From positions 1-39,800 of the forward strand of contig CACWHY010000032.1 of NCBI GenBank assembly GCA_902760805.1: a DNA stretch of 39,800 nucleotides. The letters are read 5' to 3'. The notes under the pieces were generated by a model. The model saw nothing but the letters and a program-made list of their open reading frames with translations, made no database searches and was not told the origin of the DNA. The position numbers and the translations under genes were made by a program. Shown here one piece after another: positions 31,688 through 33,923 of the stretch. Within the stretch, counting starts at the first letter, position 1. Every line of letters starts with the position of its first letter. Origin of the DNA: Ruminococcus flavefaciens (GTDB taxonomy: Bacteria > Bacillota > Clostridia > Oscillospirales > Ruminococcaceae).

Positions 31688-32128
31688 ATGGAGATCCGCA
31701 AAATGACGATCAGCGACTACGACGCTGTTTATGAGCTTTGGATGTCCTGCAAGAATATGGGCTTCAACGACGTGGACGACTCCCGGGAGGGCATCGAGCG
31801 CTTTCTCCGGAGGAACCCCGATACCTGCTTCGTTGCAGTGGACGAGGGCAGGCTCGTTGGAGTCATCCTTGGCGGACACGACGGCAGGCGTGGCTTTATC
31901 CACCATGCAGCCGTTGCAGGGACTCACAGGCGTCAGGGACTCGGCACAAGGCTGGTGCAGGCCTGCCTTGAGGCTATGAAGGCGGAGCAGATCAGCAAGG
32001 TGGCTCTGCTTGTGTTCAAATATAACGATGACGGCAATGCCTTCTGGGAAAAACAGGGCTTCACCGTCAGGGAGGATCTGAACTACCGAAATATGGCTCT
32101 CCGAGAGCTTGTTAGGATAGATACATGA
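31688..32128 (+). CDS. GNAT-family N-acetyltransferase in the arg cluster
   Basis: A 146-aa single-domain acetyltransferase. RRQGLGTRLVQACLE is the acetyl-CoA pyrophosphate loop, and FKYNDDGNAFWEKQGF is the C-terminal family motif, closest to the YpeA-like group. It lies 11 bases after argC with AGGAGG upstream, and its stop overlaps the next start as ATGA. Its place between argC and argJ raises the possibility of a short N-acetylglutamate synthase, but the sequence does not prove the substrate, and ArgJ could already supply that activity. Confidence 0.88.
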   Translation: MEIRKMTISDYDAVYELWMSCKNMGFNDVDDSREGIERFLRRNPDTCFVAVDEGRLVGVILGGHDGRRGFIHHAAVAGTHRRQGLGTRLVQACLEAMKAEQISKVALLVFKYNDDGNAFWEKQGFTVREDLNYRNMALRELVRIDT

Positions 32129-32688
32129 TTGGCGGAGAATGGCCTCGAAGAAAGAGGATCCGCCTTGAAAACCATGACTATTCACAGGATAGTGCGTATT
32201 TTGTTACGGTTTGCACTCACGATCGTCAGCAGCTTTTCGGAATGGGAGAAGCCGTTTTCGTAGGGGCGCACCCATGTGTGCGCCCGCCCACCGGCGCAGA
32301 AGCACTCACGCCGGCTGGAAAGATGGTCGAAAAATGGCTGTATAAGCTGGAAAGCAAGTATCCGGATCATTATATCGATTGCTATGTGATAATGCCAGAT
32401 CATGTTCATTTTATCATTGTTCGCTGCGGCACAGCGGGCGGACACATGGGTCCGCCCCTACCCAATGTTCTTCAGTGGTTCAAAACACAGACTACAAATG
32501 ACTATATTCGTGGTGTGAAGGAAGATACATTTCCGCCGTTCACTGAAAAGGTGTGGCAGCGAAGTTTTTATGAACACATAATAAAAGATCCGCAGGATAT
32601 GCAGGAGATACGCAGATATATTTACGAAAATCCGCTTAAAAAGGCAGCGGAAAAAGAGGAGGAATATCCATGGAACTTAAAAAGATAG
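32125..32688 (+). CDS. REP-associated tyrosine transposase (RAYT, IS200-like Y1 family)
   Basis: A 187-aa HUH single-strand DNA transposase relative. RRKRIRLENHDYSQDSAYFVT is the typical RAYT start (first residues quoted in part); VIMPDHVHF contains the HVH metal-binding pair, FKTQTTNDYIRG carries the catalytic tyrosine, and VWQRSFYEHIIKD is the conserved C-terminal motif. RAYTs cut and join at REP hairpins preceded by GTAG. Two such hairpins lie inside this gene as in-frame codons (32260-32286 and 32435-32461). It is joined to the GNAT gene by ATGA and overlaps argJ by 19 bases, carrying the argJ ribosome binding site in its 3' end. It is intact and could be active or domesticated. Confidence 0.92.
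   Translation: MIGGEWPRRKRIRLENHDYSQDSAYFVTVCTHDRQQLFGMGEAVFVGAHPCVRPPTGAEALTPAGKMVEKWLYKLESKYPDHYIDCYVIMPDHVHFIIVRCGTAGGHMGPPLPNVLQWFKTQTTNDYIRGVKEDTFPPFTEKVWQRSFYEHIIKDPQDMQEIRRYIYENPLKKAAEKEEEYPWNLKR
32260..32286 (+). repeat. REP palindrome inside the RAYT gene, copy 1
   Basis: 27 bases, GTAG followed by an 8-bp stem GGGCGCAC/GTGCGCCC around the loop CCATGT, ending in CCCG. It is exactly nine codons, in frame, encoding VGAHPCVRP in a surface loop region of the RAYT. Confidence 0.9.
32435..32461 (-). repeat. REP palindrome inside the RAYT gene, copy 2, inverted
   Basis: On the minus strand this is identical to copy 1 except at two positions, 10 (C to G) and 21 (G to C), which pair with each other: a compensatory change that keeps the stem. 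It is also 27 bases. In the RAYT it falls after the HVH motif, where the family has a variable loop. Confidence 0.9.
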
Positions 32689-33923
32689 GCAATGTTAAGT
32701 ACATAAACGGCGGTGTTTGCGCCGCTAAGGGCTTTCGTGCAAACGGCGTGCAGTGCGGACTGACTCACGAGGGCGCTATCCCCACTAAGGGCAAGAACGA
32801 CCTGGCTCTCATCGTTTCTGACACTATGTGCAGCGCTGCTGCTGTTTACACCACAAACAAGGTGAAGGGCGCACCGATCCTTGTTACTAAGGATCACATC
32901 TCAGACGGCAAGGCTCAGGCTGTTATCGTGAATTCCGTAAACGCAAATACCTGCAATCCTGACGGCGTTCAGAAGGCTGAGAAGATGTGTCAGCTTGCAG
33001 CAAGCGAGCTCGGTCTGGACGAGAAGGACGTGATCGTTGCTTCTACGGGAGTTATCGGCCAGGTGCTCCCCATTGAGCCCATTGCAGCCGGAATGAAGGG
33101 CCTTGCAGAGGGTCTGACCTACGACGGCAACCCAAGAGCTGTTCAGGCGATCATGACCACCGACACCATGCCCAAGGAGGTAGCTGTTGAGTTCGAGCTG
33201 GGCGGAAAGACCTGCCGTCTGGGCGGAATGCTCAAGGGCAGCGGAATGATCCACCCCAACATGGCTACGACTCTTACCTTCCTGACAACTGACGCTGCCA
33301 TTTCTCCGGAAATGCTCCAGCAGGCTCTGAGCCGTGTGGTAAAGGTCACGCTCAACCGTGTCAGCGTTGACGGAGACACCTCCACCAACGATATGGTATG
33401 CGTAATGGCTTCCGGAGCTGCCGGAAATGCCGAGGTAAACAGCGACGGCGCCGACTATGAGGTCTTCGAGAACGCTCTGTACAACGTCATGCTCAACCTT
33501 GCAAGAATGATGGCTAGGGACGGCGAGGGCGCTACAAAGCTGATCGAGTGCGCTGTTTCGGGAGCTCCCGACGATAAGACTGCCGAGACTGTTGCAAAGT
33601 CGGTCATCACTTCCAGCCTTTTCAAGACCATGATCTTCGGCGAGGACGCCAACGCAGGCCGTATCTACTGCGCTGTGGGCTACGCTGAGGGGGATTTTGA
33701 CATCAGCAAGGTGGATATCGACATTGCATCAAATGCAGGAAATATCGCAGTGGGACGTCAGGGCTGTCTGGTGAAGTTCGATGAGAACAAGGCCAAGAAT
33801 GTGCTTTCCGAGGAAGTTATCCAGGTCATCATCAATATGGGCAGCGGCTCAGGCTCTGCGGTATGCTGGGGCTGTGACCTGACTTATGATTACGTTAAGA
33901 TAAACGGCGACTACCGCTCATGA
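32670..33923 (+). CDS. argJ: Bifunctional glutamate N-acetyltransferase/ornithine acetyltransferase
   Basis: A 417-aa precursor that self-cleaves into two chains. GMLKGSGMIHPNMATTL holds the Ala-Thr cleavage site whose threonine becomes the nucleophile. GVCAAKGFRANGV at the start and VSVDGDTSTND are family signatures. It moves the acetyl group from acetylornithine to glutamate and, in the bifunctional form, also uses acetyl-CoA. GAGGAGG lies 5-7 bases before the ATG, inside the end of the RAYT gene. ATGA overlap with the next gene. Confidence 0.96.
   Translation: MELKKIGNVKYINGGVCAAKGFRANGVQCGLTHEGAIPTKGKNDLALIVSDTMCSAAAVYTTNKVKGAPILVTKDHISDGKAQAVIVNSVNANTCNPDGVQKAEKMCQLAASELGLDEKDVIVASTGVIGQVLPIEPIAAGMKGLAEGLTYDGNPRAVQAIMTTDTMPKEVAVEFELGGKTCRLGGMLKGSGMIHPNMATTLTFLTTDAAISPEMLQQALSRVVKVTLNRVSVDGDTSTNDMVCVMASGAAGNAEVNSDGADYEVFENALYNVMLNLARMMARDGEGATKLIECAVSGAPDDKTAETVAKSVITSSLFKTMIFGEDANAGRIYCAVGYAEGDFDISKVDIDIASNAGNIAVGRQGCLVKFDENKAKNVLSEEVIQVIINMGSGSGSAVCWGCDLTYDYVKINGDYRS

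Follow-up and report, generated by a model that had tools for sequence, protein, structure and literature searches.

A RAYT gene of Ruminococcus flavefaciens carries, as part of its own coding sequence, two inverted GTAG-tagged REP hairpins, one on either side of the codons for the HUH motif. The gene lies in the window, the stretch of 39,800 nucleotides analysed here, which comes from a genome of 2.73 Mb. The pair has a set polarity, is conserved as nucleic acid, changes in concert and matches REPs dispersed in the same genome. From these comparisons we infer the function of the pair: the gene probably codes for a HUH/Tyr single-strand endonuclease, with an inverted pair of the enzyme's own cognate REPs built into the coding sequence and kept so that the two stay matched. 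The pair bears on the role of RAYTs in their hosts and on the way in which a RAYT recognises its REP family.

The RAYT gene, its hairpins and its locus

Two matches bear out the assignment of the gene as a RAYT in the preliminary description. The window ORF matches NF047646 with an E value of 1.4e-20 and 73.7 bits, which is under the family cut-off of 80, and a profile built from 14 relatives has TnpArep 4er8 as its top match (E = 1.5e-10). The protein belongs to the TnpAREP Y1/HUH transposase family and has the TnpAREP fold. The HUH and tyrosine residues (His93, His95 and Tyr165) are intact, and the presumed catalytic role of Tyr165 was assigned from the Y-motif column in Table 1 of PMC6006769. 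An AlphaFold model of the window RAYT (58 sequences) has a pLDDT of 83.4. The first hairpin (L1) falls in a low-confidence loop between the strand at residues 23–31 and the helix at 63–78, and the second (L2) falls between the strand at 93–100 and the helix at 112–132, which places the two on either side of the HUH strand.

In each hairpin GTAG is followed by a perfect stem of 8 bp that closes a 6-base loop, and a G trails the stem. L1 and L2 differ only at positions 10 and 21, and these two bases pair with each other, C-G in one hairpin and G-C in the other. The inverted, in-frame pair with one compensatory exchange was thus described exactly, and its placement in two tolerant loops is backed by the surface loops of the model and by the occupancy of these loops in homologues. 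The equation of 27 bases with nine codons holds for length and for L1, which starts on a codon boundary, but L2 starts at codon position 2 (32435 − 32125 = 310). Chance palindromes were rejected as a source: the 135 complete RAYT ORFs of the sample contain 186 GTAGG hairpins with a score of 7.4 or more, compared with a mean of 0.8 after codon shuffling within each ORF. No clear conserved cleavage dinucleotide was found beside the hairpins; GTAG is mostly preceded by T and the stem mostly followed by G.

Table 1. Features of the RAYT locus, in positions of the window
Feature	Position	Strand	Sequence or remark
GNAT gene, 5′ of RAYT	31688..32128	+	stop overlaps RAYT start (ATGA)
RAYT (TnpAREP) gene, 187 aa	32125..32688	+	window
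L1, first REP hairpin; encodes VGAHPCVRP, residues 46–54	32260..32286	+	GTAGGGGCGCACCCATGTGTGCGCCCG
HUH motif DHVH, residues 92–95, between both hairpins	32398..32409	+	H93, H95 invariant in 58 RAYTs
L2, second REP hairpin, inverted; overlaps residues 104–113	32435..32461	-	GTAGGGGCGGACCCATGTGTCCGCCCG
Presumed catalytic Tyr165 (YIYENP)	32617..32619	+	Y165 invariant in 58 RAYTs
argJ, 3′ of RAYT	32670..33923	+	start overlaps RAYT 3′ end

A RAYT is present at the argJ locus in the window and in its syntenic relative L034, whose contig recurs as L036 in G097, a genome listed in the same genus. Among 30 argJ loci fetched in the genus, the window's own is the only one with a RAYT, and GNAT is followed directly by argJ with no RAYT between them at L236, L237, L238 and L247. 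The simplest reading is an insertion of the RAYT in the common ancestor of the window and L034. The ribosome-binding site of argJ lies inside the 3′ end of the RAYT gene, and the last RAYT codons serve as argJ leader and start (32640–32690). RAYT genes tend to begin at, or a little downstream of, the stop codon of a preceding ORF on the same strand: in 77 of the 122 genes with an assigned start, the upstream ORF ends within −60 to +14 of the RAYT start, with peaks at −1 (14 genes), +1 (13) and +4 (7). The overlap at 32125–32128 in the window is an example, as are L002, L143 and others. Translational coupling and a preferred insertion place at stop codons are both possible.

Occurrence and polarity in relatives

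Relatives were sought in 100 genus genomes, 45 of which gave a match, in 247 family genomes, where 21 did, and in 341 genomes from the class, where 70 did. From the listed matches 148 loci were fetched, two of them repeats of own loci; the remaining listed matches include many fragments and some lower-ranked class matches that look full length. Of 151 RAYT ORFs, 16 were dropped before counting as incomplete, which left 135, and L036 was left out of nonredundant counts. Of these 135 ORFs, 102 have a hairpin in both loops and 7 in neither, while 20 are occupied at the second loop alone and 6 at the first alone; the collecting profile includes hairpin-coded residues and so favours hairpin-bearing genes, and the genes and genomes counted are not independent. 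The preliminary description proposed checking whether the two loops always hold GTAG hairpins; the 102 genes do, and the other 33 have one or none. The arrangement is less unusual than was assumed, since besides the 102 relatives all three RAYTs of the window genome have the pair. In the two further RAYTs of that genome, which are 38–39% identical to the window RAYT, the same two loops are occupied by an inverted pair whose stems are different.

The polarity of the hairpins relative to the HUH motif is nearly invariant, with a plus-oriented hairpin before the motif and a minus-oriented one after it. Without L036, hairpins in the first loop or N-terminus are plus-oriented in 108 of 109 cases (minus in 1), and those in the second loop are minus-oriented in 121 of 125 (plus in 4). 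The median L1-L2 span in the 101 genes with a pair is 203 nt, and that of the window is 202 bp. GTAGG hairpins lie within 600 bp outside six of the seven hairpin-free RAYTs; L082 has none. L035 is a RAYT with 42% identity and no internal hairpins, and the window's L2 hairpin is found base for base 100 bp downstream of it as part of an inverted pair whose partner lies at 226 bp.

The two-loop form seems to be mostly a feature of the class, presumably Clostridia, because it is rare outside the class: a wider phylum sample together with plasmid and viral loci has it in 3 of 22 complete RAYTs. Homologues outside the phylum were few (six plasmid records and two loci on viral contigs), and a Chloroflexota plasmid RAYT (L254) has REPs outside the gene only. 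Two RAYT ORFs of one genome, G1023, have 359 and 278 aa (L283 and L289) and carry three REP hairpins between the domain halves.

Conservation and concerted change of the hairpins as nucleic acid

The stems exceed what codon constraint predicts. The stem score over 202 loops is 0.926 per base pair, compared with −0.033 for synonymous recodings, and the recoding null expects 0.45 of 202 stems; observed stems were scored at their best geometry and the null at that fixed geometry, which favours the observed. Pairs in this analysis and in the compensation, arm and tree analyses below had passed the hairpin score, which leaves decayed pairs under-represented. L050, L058 and L061 have a decayed second hairpin, and the first two of these three also have in-frame stops. 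Between the window and its orthologue L034, 50 of 52 hairpin bases are kept and both changes fall in unpaired loops. Outside the hairpins 325 of 491 bases (66%) are kept, and 58 of 93 synonymous third positions.

Differences between L1 and L2 of the same gene affect 31 stem pairs in 23 genes. In 23 of these stem pairs both sides have changed and still pair; the C-G/G-C exchange noticed in the window is one case of this general pattern. The others are 4 wobbles and 4 scored as broken, and 3 of the broken ones are at position 7, which is unpaired in both copies. A long-range L1-L2 duplex as the conserved unit is disfavoured, since the differing pairs break the duplex and the local stems hold. 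The recoding null, the orthologue comparison and the compensated pairs agree with the earlier proposal that the hairpins are kept for structure.

The two hairpins of a gene change together. Stem arms within one gene differ at 0.30 of 8 bases, and in 78 of 101 genes they are identical. Arms of different genes differ at 3.2–3.4 bases at 35–55% core identity, at 0.9–1.2 at 65–75% and at 0.3–0.4 at 75–85%. On a FastTree tree, with changes placed by simple parsimony and arbitrary ties, 41 branches show a change in both arms, and on 36 of these each arm changes at two or more positions; L1 alone changes on 11 branches and L2 alone on 11.

Mismatches were used to ask which strand is kept, with all non-Watson-Crick pairs treated alike and counted in the REP sense. 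The 121 L2 hairpins (73 perfect) have 24 G.T, 0 A.C and 27 other non-pairs, and the 107 L1 hairpins (65 perfect) have 15 G.T, 2 A.C and 27 other non-pairs. Because the mRNA is complementary to the REP-sense strand at L2, each G.T pair there corresponds to A.C in the transcript. REPs lying outside RAYT genes have 20 G.T to 4 A.C, and because they share the excess, the L2 signature may come from the REP pool and not from selection in the gene. Judged from these sequences, the signature favours REP-sense single-stranded DNA, whether retained by the gene or brought in from the pool, over an mRNA fold. TnpAREP is described as recognising REPs strand-specifically, with the inverse not processed (PMC8266576), and this specificity fits the REP-sense signature.

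Two alternatives place the selection on the protein or on the transcript. Selection on the loop peptides, with the stems following from the codons, is favoured by the peptides themselves: most first-loop ones read VG.. and most second-loop ones end in PT. However, synonymous recoding fails to yield stems and so rejects codon constraint as their source. Among 101 genes, L1 is read in two phases (95 and 6, and never in the phase with TAG in frame) and L2 in three (85, 13 and 3), and the L1 loop is of low confidence in the model; constraint by the peptides is very improbable. Self-regulation through the mRNA, in which the RAYT binds the hairpins in its own transcript or the hairpins attenuate or stabilise translation, draws on hairpins that are transcribed and perfect, and on the many RAYT starts near or overlapping an upstream ORF, where expression may be coupled. 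Against this stand the L2 wobbles, which would be A.C mismatches in the mRNA, and the local stems that hold where a long-range duplex is broken. This makes regulation at the mRNA quite unlikely, and the earlier suggestion that the gene's mRNA is a ligand of its product is unsupported.

Dispersed REPs and the origin of the pair

For two hairpin types, dispersed copies in the 100 genus genomes were compared between genomes with and without a matching RAYT; the p values of this comparison ignore kinship between genomes. Genomes with a matching RAYT hold a median of 18 further copies of one type (10 genomes, range 1–28) and 16 of the other (5 genomes, range 1–53). In genomes that lack a typed matching RAYT the median is 0; even so, 20 of 90 and 19 of 95 such genomes have copies, up to 51 and 23, which counts against the explanation by cognate pairs. 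The highest T1 count, 51 copies in G044, comes from such a genome, although only part of the RAYTs were typed. Genomes without any RAYT match account for 7 of 367 and 4 of 224 copies of the two types. Loop bases of dispersed copies agree with those of the RAYT, being ATC in G097 and mostly TG or TT plus T/C in G033 and G012.

GTAG REPs are both associated with the window RAYT and dispersed, with 2 in the gene and 17 further copies in its genome; G097 has 20 copies of the same type. Every one of these dispersed copies has the L2 form; the L1 form occurs in both genomes only inside the gene, so L1 is not a donor there. By contrast, the L143 RAYT has dispersed copies of both its hairpin variants in G097, among them four close pairs of the two. 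Hairpin density is 2.44 per kb in RAYTs (185 in 75,735 nt), 0.069 in other long ORFs (20 in 291,183) and 0.754 in the remaining flanks (73 in 96,813).

The dispersed copies do not in general follow a regular REPIN layout; the majority belong to arrays in which several families are mixed. In C8, C10 and C18 of the window genome and in many G097 contigs, REP families are interleaved at steps of ~40–60 bp, and several of these arrays adjoin contig ends. One REP family, GTAGGGGACGGCGTCCTCGACGTCCC (L038, L057, L131, L133 and others), retains a G.A mismatch at position 7 of the stem, in the dispersed copies as well as in both loops. It resembles the internal stem mismatch of E. coli REPs.

The hairpins may instead be passive passengers, REPs that landed in permissive ancestral loops and are refreshed by gene conversion or template switching, either between the two or from the REP pool, while being useless to the gene. 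Ordinary genes are known to contain REPs (PMC3733652), the insertions are judged probably neutral in PMC6006769, flanking REPs share the G.T bias, and one reading phase dominates, as inheritance predicts. This account has to accommodate a hairpin density that exceeds the one in other long ORFs 35-fold and pairs that persist across 35–55% core identity. The REPs near hairpin-free RAYTs also speak against it, as do 9 of the 20 L2-only genes (L075, L096, L104, L109, L112, L149, L150, L152 and L180), which have a plus-oriented GTAGG hairpin within 150 bp outside. Passive passengers are an unlikely reading.

In the preferred explanation, an inverted pair of cognate REPs kept for matching, either strand of the gene, when single-stranded, would display one REP-sense GTAG hairpin, and the RAYT would recognise this hairpin on its own gene through putative binding. 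The pair would be kept because enzyme and substrate need matching and joint inheritance. The gene would then be a permanent, perhaps donor, copy of the REP, and binding to its own gene could limit RAYT activity. Besides the copies in genomes without a typed matching RAYT, three observations count against this explanation: the rarity of the two-loop form outside the class, the lack of dispersed copies of the window's L1 variant, and the G.T excess that flanking REPs share. A further-reaching possibility, put forward tentatively, is that a RAYT gene is an enzyme gene plus its obligate substrate, in which the pair co-evolves with specificity and self-action rewrites both hairpins together. If true, the DNA specificity of a RAYT could be read from its own coding sequence. 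The gene would label its own substrate, and the 41 first-loop arm types in 101 genes would be natural enzyme-substrate pairs. The hairpins form a second code over the protein code that synonymous recoding can remove.

GTAG-tagged hairpins, inverted pairs and a cognate RAYT are shared with REPtrons and REPINs (PMC3116915, PMC3733652, PMC8266576). In those systems REPs flank the RAYT or are dispersed, whereas here the two hairpins bracket the HUH-coding stretch of the gene itself; as in REPINs the window pair is inverted, but its dispersed copies are mostly in mixed arrays. Rickettsia palindromic elements are likewise palindromic repeats read in frame in protein genes, but they hit unrelated genes (PMC3733652), and here it is the gene for the REP's own enzyme that hosts them. 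In the text passages of open-licence papers that were searched, the one report found of internal REPs in RAYTs is PMC6006769, and two-loop polarity around the HUH motif, concerted change, the copy-number tie and the strand signature were not found.

That report (2018, BMC Genomics) describes in-frame REPs inside tnpAREP genes of subclass 2.4 besides flanking ones, a combination that the RAYT described here shares. In its account of the subclass, insertions lie generally between HuH and Y, are likely neutral and occur mainly in Cyanobacteria and Bacteroidetes. L2 of the window lies between HUH (92–95) and Tyr165 in the same way. Unlike subclass 2.4 as described there, the Ruminococcus relatives have a fixed inverted pair around the HUH motif that changes in concert and is matched to dispersed REPs. 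The subclass motifs are NH[IFV]H, WQ and YIxNNP, compared with DHVH, WQ and YIYENP in the window, and many relatives of the window RAYT have NH[IV]H and NNP.
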